From: Bdellovibrio bacteriovorus HD100
Lineage (GTDB): Bacteria > Bdellovibrionota > Bdellovibrionia > Bdellovibrionales > Bdellovibrionaceae
NCBI RefSeq assembly: GCF_000196175.1
Contig: NC_005363.1
Location: 1,922,001 to 1,986,000, forward strand
Length of the DNA: 64,000 bases
Reading direction: 5' to 3'
The notes beneath the pieces are model-generated. The model was given only the letters and a program-made list of their open reading frames with translations, was not told the DNA's origin and did not search any database. Position 1 is the first letter of the stretch. Each line of letters opens with the position of its first letter. The translations under genes were made by a program, and so were the position numbers. Of this stretch, positions 9,303 through 23,318 are shown in pieces.

Positions 9303-10060
9303 AATTCTCCTTGTGTGGAAGAGGCCAGGGGGCGGCGGCTAAGTATAAATTTATGAAGCAAAGCCCAGGTGCCCATTAAAAGAAGTCCCATCAGTGATAA
9401 CAACAAAAGGGCGCCAAAGACAATATCGACCCGCTGTTGGGTGCGCGCAGAATCAATCAGAGCACCCAAACCCCCGCCAGCCACAAACTCCCCGGCGATG
9501 GCACCGATAATCGACAGACCGGTCGAGATTTTAAGGCCGGAATAGATATAGCTGTAAGCATGGGGAAGTTTTAACTTCCACAGAGTCTGCATACGAGTGG
9601 CGCGGTAAATCCTGAATAAATCTTTTTGTGATTCACTGACACTTTCAAGACCCATCAGGGTGTTGGCGATAATCGGGAACAGTGAAACAATAAAACTTGA
9701 AGCAATGACGGTGGGGGCACCAAAGCCGAAATAGATCACCAACAAAGGGGCAATCGCAATGATTGGCACTGTCTGGAAAAACACCGCAAACGGCAAAATC
9801 GCCCGCTTCAAGGTTTCCGACATTGAAAACACAAATGAAATCAAGCCGCCCACAAGAACACTTAAACCCAATCCCGCAAGAACATTGATCAGGGTTTCTT
9901 TGAAGGCCACCGCAAAATCAGCGCGAAGCTCCTGCAAAGTTGCAACGATCATGGAAGGGGAGGGAAGCAGGGTCTCACTCACCCACCCGCCACGAACCAG
10001 AATTTCAAGACTTAAGGTCAACACAATAAAACTGATAAAGGCCGGCAGAAAACGTTTCAT
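9299..10060 (-). CDS. ABC transporter permease (SsuC/TauC/ThiX type)
   Basis: Inner-membrane permease of 253 residues with about six hydrophobic segments. The EAA-like loop for ATPase contact is visible as IYRATRMQTLWKLKLPHA. The pattern FVAGGGLGALIDSA late in the protein is typical of the TauC/SsuC/ThiX group. Both ends overlap neighbours by 4 bases (ATGA junctions), showing translational coupling with the ATPase and the binding protein. Confidence 0.88.
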   Translation of the reverse strand: MKRFLPAFISFIVLTLSLEILVRGGWVSETLLPSPSMIVATLQELRADFAVAFKETLINVLAGLGLSVLVGGLISFVFSMSETLKRAILPFAVFFQTVPIIAIAPLLVIYFGFGAPTVIASSFIVSLFPIIANTLMGLESVSESQKDLFRIYRATRMQTLWKLKLPHAYSYIYSGLKISTGLSIIGAIAGEFVAGGGLGALIDSARTQQRVDIVFGALLLLSLMGLLLMGTWALLHKFILSRRPLASSTQGEL

Positions 10061-10803
10061 GCGCGCAGCCTTTCAGAAAGCCCTTCAACGATCTTATTGA
10101 AGCCTTCGGAGGTTCTTAAGTGTTCCTGCCGTCTTTCTGGCAGCGCCAGTTTTTGGTCAAAGACGATGGGCGCTCCCGGCCCTTTGAGCATCACCACTCG
10201 TTCAGACAAAAATGCGGATTCAAACAAAGAATGCGTCACAAACACGACCGTCATACGTTCGGAATGCCAAAGCTCGTGAAGCTGGTTTTGCATTTCAAAG
10301 CGGGTGCTTTCATCCAAAGCCGCAAAGGGTTCGTCCATCAACAAAAGCTTTGGGGAATTGACCAGCGCACGCGCCAAAGACACACGCATCTTCATCCCGC
10401 CGGACAATTGATGCGGGAAAAGATGCTGGGCCTCTGTCAGGTGGACTTTTTTCAGTGCCGCCTGGACTTTGTTTTTGCGTTCTTCATCCGGCAGGTTTTT
10501 AAAAGCATGATTCAGTTCAAAAGGCAGATGCACGTTTTCATTAACGGTTCGCCACGCCAGCAGGTTGGGTTCTTGAAAGACAAAACTGGAAGGGGCGTCA
10601 GGCAAGGTCAGTTTTACACTGCCAGAACTGGTGGCCTCAAGTCCTGCCATAAGTCTTAACAGTGTGGACTTGCCGCACCCTGAAGGTCCGACAATTGAAA
10701 TGAACGAACCGGGTTCGACCATCAGGTCCATGTTTTCAATCACAGACCTTTTGCCGAAGCTTTTGTTCAATTTTTCAATTTGAATCCCCTGGGCTCCGCT
10801 CAC
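10057..10803 (-). CDS. ABC transporter ATPase (SsuB/TauB/ThiZ type)
   Basis: Cytoplasmic ATPase of the importer. I placed the start at GTG 10803 (248 residues), 1 base after the oxygenase stop, because the protein then begins just ahead of IQIEKLNKSFG as in other family members; an open extension to 10902 would lie entirely inside the oxygenase gene. It carries Walker A GPSGCGKST, the Q-loop FVFQEPNLLAW, signature LSGGMKMRVSLARAL, Walker B LLLMDEPFAALD and the switch His in FVTHSLFES. Complete and probably functional. Confidence 0.9.
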   Translation of the reverse strand: MSGAQGIQIEKLNKSFGKRSVIENMDLMVEPGSFISIVGPSGCGKSTLLRLMAGLEATSSGSVKLTLPDAPSSFVFQEPNLLAWRTVNENVHLPFELNHAFKNLPDEERKNKVQAALKKVHLTEAQHLFPHQLSGGMKMRVSLARALVNSPKLLLMDEPFAALDESTRFEMQNQLHELWHSERMTVVFVTHSLFESAFLSERVVMLKGPGAPIVFDQKLALPERRQEHLRTSEGFNKIVEGLSERLRA

Positions 10804-10804
10804 T

Positions 10805-11416
10805 TTACACCCAGTCGTAGTTAAAGCTGATGCTGATGCGTTCTTTGTCCGAATCATTTTTGGGTACTTCATGGCGCAGCCAGGATTCAAACAGCACCAC
10901 ATGGCCTTCCTGAGGCTCTAGTGAGTGATAGCGCTGGTTGTGTACCTTGGCGTTGTGTTTGCGTGGTGGTGACGCCATAAACGAATCCAGACGCGGGTCC
11001 TCGAATTTGATCGCCGAGCAGTTTTTCGGCGTCTGAACATAATAAGTCCCGCTGATTACAGACAGTGGATGCAAGTGCATGGTGTGAATAACGTCGGTGG
11101 GCATAATGTTCACCCAGCACGAAGACATGCGCAGTTCTTTCGGGTCGATGTCCATTTCAAGATGTTTTACGAACTTGCGAACGTGCTTGTTGATTTCTTT
11201 TTCCAGATCCCCAAAGGTGGATGAAAACTGGTGCAATTGGCTCATGGAACCGTAAGAGGTGAAGCCGCCTTTGTAGTTCTTTTGCGACCAGACCTGACCT
11301 TCTTCATCGACTTCGGCAATTTTCAGGGACTCTTGCTTGAGGTCCTTGTTCAGGGATTTGTCTTTGCTCGCCAAAGGAGCATAGTAAACGAAGGTGGGGA
11401 AGAGTGTTTTTATCAT
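10805..11416 (-). CDS. Putative 2-oxoglutarate/Fe(II)-dependent oxygenase (TIGR02466-like)
   Basis: Predicted cytoplasmic oxygenase of 203 residues. It has the LFPTFVYY start, a central HTMHLHPLSVISGTYYV segment with candidate iron-binding His residues, and a C-terminal LFESWLRHEVPKN plus RISISFNY. These match the pattern of the PF13759/TIGR02466 family of putative 2OG-Fe(II) oxygenases. It is the first gene of the ABC importer operon, 1 base from the ATPase start. By analogy with tauABC-tauD it may act on the imported compound, but that is inference; hydroxylation of a macromolecule is also possible. Confidence 0.78.
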   Translation of the reverse strand: MIKTLFPTFVYYAPLASKDKSLNKDLKQESLKIAEVDEEGQVWSQKNYKGGFTSYGSMSQLHQFSSTFGDLEKEINKHVRKFVKHLEMDIDPKELRMSSCWVNIMPTDVIHTMHLHPLSVISGTYYVQTPKNCSAIKFEDPRLDSFMASPPRKHNAKVHNQRYHSLEPQEGHVVLFESWLRHEVPKNDSDKERISISFNYDWV

Positions 11417-11562
11417 TTTGAGACACCTAAATGCTTGTAATTGCGTGCTTTCAACATAGGTCTAAATCTGTGTCATTACAAGAATTGATAACTACTTCTT
11501 TGACAGTTGTAAGGGGCTTTTGCGGCGGAGCGACCTCTAAAGCAATAGAATCGCTGCCCGGG

Positions 11563-11578
11563 TGGCATCCCCCTTGCT
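11563..11578 (+). promoter_or_regulatory. Sigma-54 (RpoN) type -24/-12 promoter
   Basis: TGGCATC-N4-TTGCT with GG at 11564-11565 and GC at 11576-11577, exactly 10 bases apart, matches the consensus TGGCACG-N4-TTGCW at all but two positions. Transcription would start near 11588, about 20 bases before the ATG of the next gene. It would require an activator ATPase; no obvious activator site was identified. Confidence 0.7.
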
Positions 11579-11608
11579 TTATAAGTCTGTATCAGCAAGG
11601 AGCTAAGT

Positions 11609-11941
11609 ATGAAGAAGCAAGTAGTTATCGCCGTAATGACCCTGATCCCAGCAATCAGTTTTGCCAAGATCTCGGATTTCAACGCTTTGATCAGCGAGAA
11701 TTCCAAGGCGCAAAACGAGCTTCATAATACGGTTCAACACAACCTGGAAGCGTCCCGCGAACAAGCCGCAGCGGCGGAAGTGCGCGAGCGTATCGTGGTG
11801 GTGGAAAACTCCGGCTCTTCTTATAATGCTCCAACTAAAAAAGACCTTTTGGCCTTCAAAAAGGAAAAGATCAGCCACCGCGCTTCGGAAGAAAAGCAGT
11901 TTGACCGCTTGGCTTCTGAAATCCGCGGTATGGAAGAGTAA
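11609..11941 (+). CDS. Small secreted protein, unknown function
   Basis: Exported protein of 110 residues with a signal peptide (MKKQVVIAVMTLIPAISFA) and a highly charged, helix-prone mature part rich in Glu, Lys, Arg and Ala. It has no cysteines and no motif I recognise. An AAGGAG site lies 6 bases upstream of the ATG and a sigma-54 type promoter 32 bases upstream. It is monocistronic: its stop codon abuts the stop of the converging recombinase gene. The charged helical mature region could be a periplasmic coiled coil. Confidence 0.8.
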   Translation: MKKQVVIAVMTLIPAISFAKISDFNALISENSKAQNELHNTVQHNLEASREQAAAAEVRERIVVVENSGSSYNAPTKKDLLAFKKEKISHRASEEKQFDRLASEIRGMEE

Positions 11942-18543: not shown

Positions 18544-18924
18544 ATGAAAAAGCTTTTGTTGGTTTTGTCAGTTATGGGATCTTTGGCAGCGTGCAGTCAC
18601 GGGAACTGCCGCGCCCAGAAGGAAGCTCAGAAAAACGCCCCTAAAAGCGAGGTTGTTGTGGAAAAATCCAAAGCCACGGATCGTGTGAAGGTGTTTAAGT
18701 ACGACGGATCTTTGCAGTGCGGTCAGGGTAAAAAAATCGCCCCGGCTGAAATGCAAAAAGACCTCAAGGGTATTGAGGTCTTTTCTTCATCCAATCAGAA
18801 TGACGGGATGATGCGTATTCAACTTTGCGGAAGCCCGACAGGCAACGCCAATGTCTACGAGATCGATCGTAAGGACCTGGACGCTGCCCTGAAGCTGGGC
18901 TTTAAAGAGTGGTTGGCTGAATAA
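18544..18924 (+). CDS. Small lipoprotein, unknown function
   Basis: Lipoprotein of 126 residues. The signal peptide ends in the lipobox SLAAC. The mature part has a Lys/Glu-rich linker, then a small domain with three further cysteines (NCRAQ, LQCGQ, LCGS) that could form a disulfide in the periplasm. It lies 9 bases after bamB and so is probably co-transcribed. Its last 23 bases overlap the end of the converging Fic-domain gene. No family recognised. Confidence 0.8.
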   Translation: MKKLLLVLSVMGSLAACSHGNCRAQKEAQKNAPKSEVVVEKSKATDRVKVFKYDGSLQCGQGKKIAPAEMQKDLKGIEVFSSSNQNDGMMRIQLCGSPTGNANVYEIDRKDLDAALKLGFKEWLAE

Positions 18925-21214
18925 GCAAACGCTCTTTGATTCTTTCTGTCGGGAGAGGACCTTCTCCCGGCACGTAGCGACCATCGATCACCATCACTTC
19001 ATTTGGTTTCTCAACGTTTCTTAGAAGCGTTTCCATTACTTTACCAGCGGCATCCAGTCTTTGGATCAGCATCACCGCATCTGGATCTGTACCACCGATA
19101 CCCATAACTTCTGCCTGACGGCCGTACGTGTAGGCGAATTCAGGGTCGAATGCTTTCAGACGGCCCAGATCCACGTCTTTCATCGCTCTGTAAGAAGCCA
19201 CGTTGATACGGGACTTCAACTGGGACTGAAGAGCTGGATCCATGTGCTTGCCGTATTCACCAACAACCATCGCACCCATTGCGAAGGCTTTACCGACCAC
19301 TTCACGTTTGGAAGTGGAGTAACCATAGGACACACCGTACTTCGGACCGCTTCTATGGTGGTCAATGGCCATTTCAACCATGTCACCATTCAGAGACTCT
19401 TTGTTATACAGAGCAAAGTCATTCTTGATCGCCTCGACCAGCGGAGTGCCGGAACGAAGTGCTCTTAATACACTGTTGGACACCAGGTGAGATGTTGGTT
19501 TTTTGAAGTAATCCAACAGCTCTTGACGAGTCGGCTCTTTGGTTCTGTTGGAAAGACCGCGCCATACCAGCAGCTCTTTGTCATACCAACGGTTCATTTT
19601 TGCATCCCAAAGGGCTTTGGAACCGGAACGATTTACACCGAACAGATCAATAAAGTCAGGATCCACCAGGCGCAGGCCGATCTGGCGTTCGCCATCTTTA
19701 TCGTGGATGTAGCGCACTGTTTTTGATCTGTAGTATTCAACGAACAGGTCTGCAATACGGGACATGGCACGCAGACGGTTGTTCTGGATCTCAACTTTCA
19801 GTTCAGGGTGGGCCTGAACCAGGGTTTTGATGAAGGCGTTGAACTGCTCACTGTCAACTTTTGCTTGAGCGTAGTTTTCAACGACTTTGGTTTTGCCCTG
19901 TTGTTTCAGGGAGATGTTCACCATTTCTGGCAGGCCTGGATACAGCAACTCTGGAGAGTGCTCTACAGTCAGACCATTTTTCACACGGAACAGAACATCG
20001 GCTTGCAACTGGGCGTTGTTAACAACACCTTTGTGAACGTATTCGCGCCATTCTTTCTGGGAAACCTGAACATCCAGGAAAGGATCCACCAGGCGAACTG
20101 GAGGCAGGCCTTCTTTTGTCAGAAGATAGTTCATCAACAAACGAGTCGTACGGCCGTTGCCATTCAGAACCGGGTGGATTGCCACCAGGTCACGCTGAAG
20201 GTCCGCTACGATGTCGATATATCTGTGTTCATTAATACCGATTTTAACTTCGCCCAAAGCGGCGCGCTCAGCATTGAATCTTTCGAAACGCTGTTCGACC
20301 AGAGCTTTTGTGAAGGCTTGCTCCAGGGCTGCAGGACCTTGACCTTCATAGGAGGTGCCGTGCTGCTGGCGGTATTCCATGACCTGCTTGTAGACTTCCG
20401 GGTGGGAAGTTTTGATCAGATCAACAGTCTCCTGCTTTGGAGTTGTAACAAACGGATAGTGAATGCGACCGCTTACCAAAGTCGTGTCGCCATTTTCCAC
20501 AACCATGTCACGTTTGGAACCCCAGATCTTCACTTTCTTCCATACGCCTTCGTTCAAAGTGCTGCCTTCGCGAGCGCTTTCGACAAAGTCCAGATATGGA
20601 TTTTCTTTCACGATCTTGGCTTCATTCGGTGTCATTTTGAATGCGCCAGCAACGTTGCCCATCCAGTGGCCATTGCGCCATACACCCAGTTGATCTGGAC
20701 GGATGCCTTCAACGCCGTTTTCCATAATGCGTCTATGGATCTCTGGCAGAAGTTCTGCTGTGATTGGAGGTTGTTCTTTTCTTAGGAAGTTGTCGCGAGC
20801 ACTCAGGAAACCTTTAAAAGGAGCCGCTTCGCCTTCGTTCCAGCGATCATAAATCTTGGAGAAGTCCATCGCTTCGCGTTTGCCTTCAAGGAAGTTCGGC
20901 AAAAGCTTGTCAGCGGTGTGCGTGTAATCGAAGAACTCAACGGAAGCCAGCAGATGTTCGATCTGGGCTTTGCGCTGGGATGGAATCTTTTCCAGAGTGG
21001 CCCAGAGTTCAGACTTAATTGATTTGAATTGCAGGAGTTCGCGTGGTGTTTCCGGCTGTTTCGCTTCAGAACGCAGGCCGAAGTCCACACCGCGGGCTTT
21101 AACCTGAGGATCTGTAAAGACATATTCACACATCTGAGCGGCTTGCGCCGGGCTCATGAAGCTGATTGTCAGCAACAGGGACAGGATGAACTTAAACATG
21201 TTATGCACAGGCAT
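18902..21214 (-). CDS. Exported Fic-domain protein with ADP-ribosyltransferase-like C-terminus
   Basis: Exported protein of 770 residues. Residues 1-26 form a signal peptide ending AQA-A. A Fic core is centred on HPVLNGNGRTTR (His347-Arg358), with the helical surroundings usual for Fic AMP-transferases; the acidic metal-binding position of the motif is Asn351. Residues about 540-750 look like an R-S-E type ADP-ribosyltransferase: Arg552 in VWRGL, Ser-Thr-Ser 633-635 in YGYSTSK, and candidate glutamates in QAEV (702) or PNEV (739). An AGAGGAG site precedes ATG 21214. The Fic part is clear; the second domain is a motif-level inference. The substrate and whether it leaves the cell are unknown. 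Confidence 0.82.
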   Translation of the reverse strand: MPVHNMFKFILSLLLTISFMSPAQAAQMCEYVFTDPQVKARGVDFGLRSEAKQPETPRELLQFKSIKSELWATLEKIPSQRKAQIEHLLASVEFFDYTHTADKLLPNFLEGKREAMDFSKIYDRWNEGEAAPFKGFLSARDNFLRKEQPPITAELLPEIHRRIMENGVEGIRPDQLGVWRNGHWMGNVAGAFKMTPNEAKIVKENPYLDFVESAREGSTLNEGVWKKVKIWGSKRDMVVENGDTTLVSGRIHYPFVTTPKQETVDLIKTSHPEVYKQVMEYRQQHGTSYEGQGPAALEQAFTKALVEQRFERFNAERAALGEVKIGINEHRYIDIVADLQRDLVAIHPVLNGNGRTTRLLMNYLLTKEGLPPVRLVDPFLDVQVSQKEWREYVHKGVVNNAQLQADVLFRVKNGLTVEHSPELLYPGLPEMVNISLKQQGKTKVVENYAQAKVDSEQFNAFIKTLVQAHPELKVEIQNNRLRAMSRIADLFVEYYRSKTVRYIHDKDGERQIGLRLVDPDFIDLFGVNRSGSKALWDAKMNRWYDKELLVWRGLSNRTKEPTRQELLDYFKKPTSHLVSNSVLRALRSGTPLVEAIKNDFALYNKESLNGDMVEMAIDHHRSGPKYGVSYGYSTSKREVVGKAFAMGAMVVGEYGKHMDPALQSQLKSRINVASYRAMKDVDLGRLKAFDPEFAYTYGRQAEVMGIGGTDPDAVMLIQRLDAAGKVMETLLRNVEKPNEVMVIDGRYVPGEGPLPTERIKERLLIQPTTL

Positions 21215-21357: not shown

Positions 21358-22539
21358 TTAGACGAACTTGGAAAGCGTTGAAATAGCGGAATCAAGTTCT
21401 TCCCTGGTGTTATGAATATGCGGGGTCAGTCTTAAAACAGGCCACCCGGGAACCCTTGGCAGGCCGACCTGCAGCTGTGGTTTCGAATGACGGACAAACA
21501 GGCCGTCAAACTCGATCCCGGGGAAACTTCCGACCTTGTAACATAATAGACTTGAAGCAATATCTGAATGCCGGCCTTTAAGTGATTTGATCTTGAATTG
21601 ATTTAAGCCGTCTTCAAGATAGTTCATACGTTTTTGAATTTCAGTTCTGATGAATTCAGATCCAGCCTGATCCCAGAAATCAAAGCACGATTCCAAACCA
21701 TACAGGCTTGCATAACTCATTGAATGCGACCACAGCATGCGTGCTGCAAACGGATGATCACAATAAGCACCCATACCAGGCAGAATCTTTTCTTCGGTGG
21801 TCCAAGATCCATAAGCCGGCTGCATCTGATCCTGAAACAAAGGATTCACCCAGCCAAATGCGGTGCCTTTGGGACCCATAAACCATTTGTGCAGATTCCC
21901 GGCATAATAATCGACGTTTTTAAGCTCGTTTGTGAAGTTTAAATCCAATAAACCTGGCGCATGAGCCCCATCAACCACCAATAAAACGTCTCTGGCTCTT
22001 AAAGCTGTCGCCAGTTTTTCCAAAGGCATGGTCAGACCGTTGCCAGTAAAGACATGGCTGACAACGAAGACGCGGGTTTTGTCCGAGATTTGCGAAACGA
22101 TCTTTGAAACCGCTTCATCCGCCGAGATTTCATCATACATAAAATCCGCGTTGATAAAGCGCACAGAAAGACGGTCTTTGCGGGCCTTGAAATGCAGAAT
22201 GTTAACAACCGCACCGTATTCAAAGCTGGTGGAAAGAATTTCGGAGTCTGCAGGCAGTTGCAAACCCATGATAATTTCATTTAATGCCAAAGTGACATTG
22301 GGGCGAAGAAACAGATCCTGAGGTCGGGCTTTGATGAAACGCCCCAGACGCTCTTGCAGGGCCCACAGACGAGCCCAGGCTGCACCATACCCAGTAGATG
22401 TGTTGTGTTCAAAAGTGCCCAGCTCGGCCTTTTGCTGATCAATAACAACCGAAGGACACAGCCCCAAAGTGCCGTTGTTGAGATTCACGAAAAACGTGTC
22501 TTTGTACTTCTCAAAAGCGGCGGAAAAATCCTGAAACAT
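21358..22539 (-). CDS. Class V aminotransferase-fold PLP enzyme
   Basis: PLP-dependent enzyme of 393 residues related to isopenicillin N epimerase and cysteine-desulfurase-like proteins. The N-terminal FVNLNNGTLGLCP is the usual substrate loop. VVDGAHAPG holds the Asp that contacts the PLP ring nitrogen, and the Schiff-base lysine is in GNLHKWFMGPKG. There is no sulfur-accepting Cys loop of the NifS/SufS type. It has no signal peptide, unlike both its neighbours. The start lies 2 bases from the NADAR stop, so they are coupled. Its reaction is not identifiable. Confidence 0.83.
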   Translation of the reverse strand: MFQDFSAAFEKYKDTFFVNLNNGTLGLCPSVVIDQQKAELGTFEHNTSTGYGAAWARLWALQERLGRFIKARPQDLFLRPNVTLALNEIIMGLQLPADSEILSTSFEYGAVVNILHFKARKDRLSVRFINADFMYDEISADEAVSKIVSQISDKTRVFVVSHVFTGNGLTMPLEKLATALRARDVLLVVDGAHAPGLLDLNFTNELKNVDYYAGNLHKWFMGPKGTAFGWVNPLFQDQMQPAYGSWTTEEKILPGMGAYCDHPFAARMLWSHSMSYASLYGLESCFDFWDQAGSEFIRTEIQKRMNYLEDGLNQFKIKSLKGRHSDIASSLLCYKVGSFPGIEFDGLFVRHSKPQLQVGLPRVPGWPVLRLTPHIHNTREELDSAISTLSKFV

Positions 22540-22541
22540 AA

Positions 22542-23318
22542 TTACTTATTACGACCTTTGCAGGTTTTCAAAGACAGATCTTCGCCGGTCACCAAAGACA
22601 ACTGATTGTTTTTCAGCTGTTCGCGGATATCCATCCACAGCAGATAGTAATGCCATTCGCGGGGGGATTTTTCCGAAACTCCATGGTCGGGGAGAAGTTT
22701 CAGATCATTTGTCTTCACCAGAACATCCAAAACTTCAGGATTCTGGCGCAGTTTTTCGATCAGAGCTTCGAAGATCAGATTGTAATGTTCGGCTGGTTCT
22801 TTGGTCGCAAATGGAAACACCTTGCCTTCAAAGGTCACCCAGTTGGCATCGTTTTTTTCCATCAGGAAGTTGGCATAACCACCGGCACTTTTCGCGGCAT
22901 AGCCATTCATCTGGGAAACTTGTTCGCGCGTGTATTTCCAGTTCTTGGCCCACGCCCAGCGCGGATCATTTTCAGTCTCTGGATATTTCATCATCTGCCA
23001 GAAGGCTTCAACCGTTGGATAACAAACACCATGGAATACAAAAGAAGCTTCGGCAAAGTTTGAAAGCAGGCCCAGCTCGTTTCTTTTGCTTAAAACAACT
23101 TCCATGCGGCCGGCATCTTGCGGAAGGATTTCCCAGGATTTGGCTTCTTCACGCGGAACTTCTTTCCACCAGTGTGCAGGATACGGAGCTTTCCAGGAGT
23201 CGTCTGATTTTGCGGCAGGTTTTACACCTTGGGTGGGCTTTTTATTGCTGGAATCAGAACAAGAAACCAGAAATGCTGTCAGAAGCACAAACAAAGAAAC
23301 AAATGTCGTTTTAGCCAT
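22542..23318 (-). CDS. NADAR (YbiA-like) domain lipoprotein
   Basis: Lipoprotein of 258 residues: the signal peptide ends with LVSC (Cys20), then a short polar linker. From about residue 80 the chain reads LGLLSNFAEASFVFHGVCYPTVEAFWQMMKY when joined in pieces, the hallmark LSNF...YPTVE.FWQ.MK pattern of NADAR/YbiA proteins. This fold is linked to NAD/ADP-ribose chemistry, and some members remove ADP-ribose from nucleic acid bases. Known members are cytoplasmic, so an exported lipoprotein form is unusual. It lies two genes upstream of the Fic/ART-like exported protein. Confidence 0.82.
   Translation of the reverse strand: MAKTTFVSLFVLLTAFLVSCSDSSNKKPTQGVKPAAKSDDSWKAPYPAHWWKEVPREEAKSWEILPQDAGRMEVVLSKRNELGLLSNFAEASFVFHGVCYPTVEAFWQMMKYPETENDPRWAWAKNWKYTREQVSQMNGYAAKSAGGYANFLMEKNDANWVTFEGKVFPFATKEPAEHYNLIFEALIEKLRQNPEVLDVLVKTNDLKLLPDHGVSEKSPREWHYYLLWMDIREQLKNNQLSLVTGEDLSLKTCKGRNK

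Follow-up and report, generated by a model that had tools for sequence, protein, structure and literature searches.

The stretch of DNA analysed here, 64,000 nucleotides of the Bdellovibrio bacteriovorus HD100 genome (NC_005363.1, positions 1,922,001 to 1,986,000; hereafter the window), carries on its reverse strand a three-gene cassette encoding a lipoprotein of the NADAR family, a pyridoxal phosphate (PLP)-dependent protein and a large protein, here called Fic-ART, in which a predicted export signal is followed by a Fic domain and by a C-terminal domain with the active-site signature of an R-S-E ADP-ribosyltransferase (ART). The lipoprotein and PLP genes lie 2 bp apart on the same strand upstream of Fic-ART, and a gap of 143 bp separates the PLP gene from the Fic-ART start (Table 1).

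The open reading frame (ORF) of Fic-ART begins with an ATG at position 21214, just 5' of which stands a Shine-Dalgarno-like AAGAGGAG, and its stop codon ends at 18902; matches in a scan for sigma-70-type promoters were rarer than in shuffled sequence. A first-pass annotation of this DNA had described an ORF with a signal peptide, and both hold, the N-terminal signal being present and the ORF being conserved in seven further Bdellovibrio genomes at 62-95% identity, with a 77% orthologue in B. bacteriovorus strain kdesi and a truncated remnant in an eighth further genome. At one locus (L027:7479-8561(+)) Fic-ART is cut off just before the Fic motif while the NADAR and PLP genes are intact. One of the seven genomes has two tandem copies (L025:7144-9612(+) and 9609-11924(+)), each 64% identical to the window's protein, one with the motif HPFRNGNGR and the other with HPVLNGNGR. 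In many distant relatives lipoprotein-type signals replace the Sec-type signal peptide. A search of viral contigs for Fic-ART relatives returned generic Fic matches only. A small lipoprotein gene on the forward strand (18544-18924) overlaps the 3' end of Fic-ART tail to tail by 23 bases (18902-18924), an arrangement kept in most orthologues.

Table 1. Features of the Fic-ART cassette in window coordinates, and loci of a second Fic family in their own coordinates
Feature	Position	Strand	Evidence
Fic-ART protein, 770 aa, exported (predicted)	18902..21214	(-)	ORF; Pfam Fic; orthologues
Signal peptide, residues 1-26 (...SFMSPAQAA)	21137..21214	(-)	sequence; hydrophobic N-terminus and A-x-A kept in orthologues
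Fic motif HPVLNGNGRTTR, residues 347-358	20141..20176	(-)	Pfam Fic match; orthologues; family alignment
ART-like domain, about residues 540-735	19010..19597	(-)	conserved block in 54 homologues
R552 (W-R-G), first residue of R-S-E triad	19559..19561	(-)	52/54
S633-T634-S635	19310..19318	(-)	Ser633 52/54, Thr634 47/54, Ser/Thr635 52/54
Candidate ARTT loop Y-T-Y697-G-R-Q700-A-E702 (XX(phi)XXQXE)	19109..19132	(-)	Y/F697 50/51 (homologues having a residue there), Q700 51/54, E702 52/54; consensus PMC7827354
PLP-dependent class V aminotransferase / cysteine-desulfurase-like protein, without signal peptide; cassette gene 2	21358..22539	(-)	Pfam PF00266 E 2e-19; same nine Bdellovibrio genomes
NADAR-family (T4 gp30.3 type) lipoprotein, cassette gene 1; E104, K111, H212 kept	22542..23318	(-)	PF08010; hhalign; alignment
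Second Fic + R-STS-[EQ]xE family	L028:3431-6046(-), L029:5076-7625(+), L030:5035-7581(-), L031:4815-7355(-)		

Fic core and ART active-site signature

The sole Pfam family recognised in Fic-ART is Fic (PF02661), which matches residues 311-365 with 32.1 bits against a curated cut-off of 24, and the Fic core predicted at residues 347-358 is thus confirmed. Compared with the consensus HxFx[D/E]GN[G/K]R, HPVLNGNGRTTR has V in place of F and N in place of D/E, and the protein remains a recognisable member of the Fic family. The proposal that Asn351 in the metal-binding position points away from plain AMPylation proved a weak inference, Asn being the majority state among family sequences with a Fic motif (Asn in 32, Asp in 17). 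Because CccR of Yersinia pseudotuberculosis, whose motif is HPFGNGNGRTVR, AMPylates FtsZ at Thr8 (PMC9755527), Asn351 is no argument against AMPylation, and given this precedent its value as a sign of other chemistry is unproven. A candidate inhibitory Fic helix of the form [S/T]xxxE[G/N] (STLNEG at 218) was rejected, as it is not conserved there in the orthologues L024, L025 (first copy) and L026.

The C-terminal domain was scanned against Pfam, NCBIfam, PHROGs and PDB sequences, and no family recognised it, also when 45 homologues were included. Its residues were then assessed in an alignment of 54 homologues reaching down to about 30% identity, in which R552, the STS at 633-635 and E702, three elements of the triad named in the first-pass annotation, are present and nearly invariant; E739, offered there as an alternative glutamate, is Glu in only 30 of the 54 and is ruled out as the catalytic residue, which leaves E702 as the candidate. 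The conserved Arg within W-R-G, the S-T-S/T motif and a loop matching the published consensus for the ADP-ribosylating turn-turn (ARTT) loop of R-S-E ARTs, XX(phi)XX[E/Q]XE (PMC7827354), are thus all found in the sequence. Among 200,000 column-shuffled versions of the alignment, not one reproduced the set R / STS / (phi)xxQxE with the observed order and spacing. Q700 and the aromatic residue at 697, two and five residues before E702, were not listed in the first-pass annotation. The aromatic residue at position 697 provides an independent check, because the phi position played no part in the choice of motif. The spacing, 81 residues from R to S and 69 from S to E, is longer than in the PF03496 ARTs of the same phylum.

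In four homologues the Fic motif is gone and the ART residues remain (L118, L121, L188 and L194, the last with S-L-T for STS), so the ART-like domain is the steadier part of the protein; two others lack both, and a further two, whose Fic motif is intact, carry S-F-S and a divergent loop. Judged from these alignments, selection acts on the C-terminal domain itself, independently of the Fic motif, and its active-site signature supports its assignment as an ART, with the fold deduced from the motifs. The earlier observation is accordingly confirmed and sharpened, and its reading as a Fic core and an R-S-E ART in one exported protein is supported at the level of conserved motifs, whereas an ART fold could not be shown.

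Of 369 Bdellovibrionota genomes searched with a profile of the C-terminal domain, 45 contain it, and a wider profile recovered still more distant members. The domain is always the last one, in proteins of about 650-800, 1,430-1,590 or 2,150-2,230 aa; nearly all of these have a signal or lipoprotein-type N-terminus, and the longer ones have Fic directly before the domain. Directly upstream of the giants of 1,430-2,230 aa, at 17 loci (L087:3674-4282(+) and 16 similar ones), a small exported protein of about 175 aa is encoded, possibly a partner, chaperone or immunity protein. A second exported family combining Fic with R...STS...[E/Q]xE comprises four proteins of about 850 aa from Bdellovibrio and a neighbouring genus (L028-L031), with the canonical Asp in the Fic motif (HPF[IV]DGNGRTSM) and an aromatic residue at phi. 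Its score against the ART region of the first family was not significant, so Fic-ART fusions may have had more than one origin or have undergone very extensive divergence.

The NADAR gene as neighbour and phylum-wide companion

The strongest functional clue is the NADAR-family gene of the cassette, absent from the first-pass annotation. The lipoprotein matches PF08010 (T4 gp30.3) with E values of 8e-6 to 1e-7, below the Pfam cut-off, and hhalign aligns it to T4 gp30.3 with a probability of 84.6% and an E value of 7e-6. NADAR catalysis depends on a Glu and a Lys (E88/K95 of the C7 NADAR) together with an E, D or H near the C-terminus, and the corresponding E104, K111 and H212 of the lipoprotein are invariant with T4 gp30.3. 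NADARs, including T4 gp30.3, hydrolyse guanine-ADP-ribose, and they are the antitoxins of DarT1 and probably of YarT (PMC11125620, PMC11543638). A tblastn search of phages with the lipoprotein gave no match. Phage T4 offers another case of an ART near a NADAR, with about 3 kb between its ART gene alt and the NADAR gene 30.3 (L197:1955-4003(-), L198:108-566(-)).

Among 24 Bdellovibrio genomes the cassette is inherited as a whole or not at all, with the three genes in nine and none of them in 15. It is intact in eight, in each of which the ART and NADAR genes are on the same strand with one PLP gene between them, and in the ninth (G012) NADAR and PLP persist next to a Fic-ART that is truncated. 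At L025 one flank is retained, different genes occupy the other and Fic-ART is duplicated; at L024 PLP and Fic-ART are separated by an inserted gene. As a general partner of Fic-ART the PLP gene is ruled out, being absent near distant Fic-ART loci. Two such distant loci lie close to a NADAR gene (2 kb at L092 and 4 kb at L120), where we estimate from genome sizes that roughly 0.1 would be expected.

Across the 369 Bdellovibrionota genomes, an exported NADAR occurs in 38 of the 45 with Fic-ART against 74 of the 324 without it (odds ratio (OR) 18, Fisher p 1e-15). PF03496 ARTs, which were searched in 359 of the 369 genomes with counts treated as 369, have no such link (20/68 vs 92/301, OR 0.95), and the co-occurrence is therefore not explained by genome completeness or ART richness. 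Within the family f12, assumed to correspond to genomes G040-G168, the exported NADAR is present in 30 of 35 genomes with Fic-ART and in 25 of 94 without, and when f12 is collapsed to genera the figures, counted by hand from the tables, become 15/15 and 11/33 (p 7e-6). The PF03496 ARTs, many of them with signal peptides, were found in 68 of the 359 genomes searched (L124-L143); the genome that the window comes from gave no match.

Proposed function and its alternatives

From the observed sequence, motif conservation, cassette and co-occurrence, we infer an ART fold and activity, a guanine target, a role in predation and an object protected by the NADAR. The reading we favour, with a probability of about 0.6, is that Fic-ART is an extracytoplasmic effector or enzyme whose ART is most likely guanine-directed and which is coupled to an exported NADAR reversal enzyme. 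Action in the bdelloplast or the predator periplasm is proposed because export from the cytoplasm is predicted for each partner. The Sec signal would export Fic-ART; its Fic domain would probably move AMP, or another nucleotide part, onto a protein; and the C-terminal domain, as a divergent R-S-E ART whose active site reads R-STS-(phi)xxQxE, would most likely use NAD+ to mark guanine with ADP-ribose in nucleotides or nucleic acid that the prey releases or exposes within the bdelloplast. The NADAR lipoprotein may then reverse the mark on the predator's own envelope or periplasm, or clean nucleotides before uptake. A fuller scheme, in which guanine ADP-ribosylation is reversible outside the cytoplasm, with the secreted Fic-ART marking prey guanine and the predator's exported NADAR lipoprotein clearing the mark from the material taken up, is put forward tentatively.

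Several observations weigh against the favoured reading. AlphaFold2 models of the mature protein from two sequences (the window's and one orthologue) and of residues 500-770 from a single sequence reached predicted local distance difference test (pLDDT) values of 34 and 37, respectively, too low to be informative. In hhalign comparisons with the in-phylum PF03496 ART set, run with Fic decoys, NADAR decoys and column shuffles as controls, the STS motifs came into register but the match was not significant (p about 0.005-0.02, probability 2-7%). The genome counts are phylogenetically non-independent, relatedness having been only partly removed; NADAR occurs in many genomes that lack Fic-ART (74/324); and a literature search for expression, secretion or activity data on Fic-ART found none. 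Nor does the loop force guanine as the acceptor, since C3-type QxE enzymes modify asparagine (PMC7827354).

It is this last point that gives the leading alternative its footing, namely that exported Fic-ART modifies protein side chains (asparagine or glutamine, as C3-type QxE enzymes do) and that the NADAR, as an independent housekeeping enzyme, is a neighbour co-inherited by chance. The genomes with NADAR and no Fic-ART suit this explanation as well. We nonetheless consider it doubtful, as the co-occurrence is strong and specific to the Fic-ART family, unlike that of PF03496 ARTs, and the cassette survives both the change of one flank in L025 and tandem duplication. In C3 the acceptor bound by the Gln at ARTT position six is asparagine, in ScARP it is guanine (PMC7827354), and guanine is the better guess because a QxE with an aromatic phi, as in ScARP, is here combined with a guanine-specific hydrolase family as the genetic partner.

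Several R-S-E ARTs also hydrolyse NAD+, and the C-terminal domain with its R-STS-QxE might mainly be an NAD+ glycohydrolase destroying prey NAD+ with no specific acceptor; its exported location could bring it into contact with prey NAD+ after a breach of the inner membrane of the prey. This appears improbable, given that Q700 and phi697, conserved here, are acceptor-contacting positions in known ARTs and suggest a real acceptor, and that the NADAR link points to a product bearing ADP-ribose. Least probable is that the triad is a convergent coincidence in a new, non-ART fold aiding Fic in target binding or delivery, for although no library scanned recognised the domain and the profile-profile match to ARTs was not significant, the full ARTT consensus with R and STS in order withstood every column shuffle and the domain persists in homologues lacking the Fic motif.

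If the guanine-directed reading is right, the pairing of ART and NADAR would extend from toxin-antitoxin modules to exported enzymes. The candidate ART family, unrecognised by the profile libraries tried and fused to Fic in a large exported family across Bdellovibrionota, has through its NADAR link a concrete, testable product guess, guanine-ADP-ribose, and supplies named effector candidates for the handling of prey nucleotides by Bdellovibrio.

Relation to known systems

A literature search for a known Fic-ART fusion or for work on Fic or NADAR in Bdellovibrio found none. On the Fic side the nearest parallel is CccR, likewise with a Fic core having N in place of D/E, secreted and directed at other bacteria, as is proposed for Fic-ART; CccR, however, has a DNA-binding domain and no ART, and is a type VI secretion system (T6SS) effector. 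On the ART side, ScARP (SCO5461) of Streptomyces coelicolor, the pierisin group and the C3 exoenzymes share with it the order of an R, an S-T-S type motif and XX(phi)XXQXE. ScARP, too, is secreted, and it acts on guanosine, GTP and compounds related to them (PMC11209040, PMC7827354). No significant sequence similarity to these enzymes was found, however, and the Fic-ART domain differs from them in being fused behind Fic and in having its own NADAR neighbour.

The cassette lipoprotein shares E104, K111 and the phage-type His212 with T4 gp30.3 and the NADAR superfamily (PF08010, PF08719), from which the Bdellovibrionota version is set apart by a lipoprotein or signal peptide and an N-terminal WWKxVP...WEILPQ extension. 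The closest genetic precedents are the YarT-YbiA pairs of myxobacteria and the DarT1-NADAR pairs (PMC11125620, PMC11543638), in which an ART gene likewise adjoins a NADAR gene and the NADAR undoes, or is proposed to undo, the ART mark. These small antitoxin pairs, with ARTs of the H-Y-E or DarT type, were assayed within E. coli cells, whereas in Bdellovibrio both partners have export signals and the ART is part of a large R-S-E Fic fusion.
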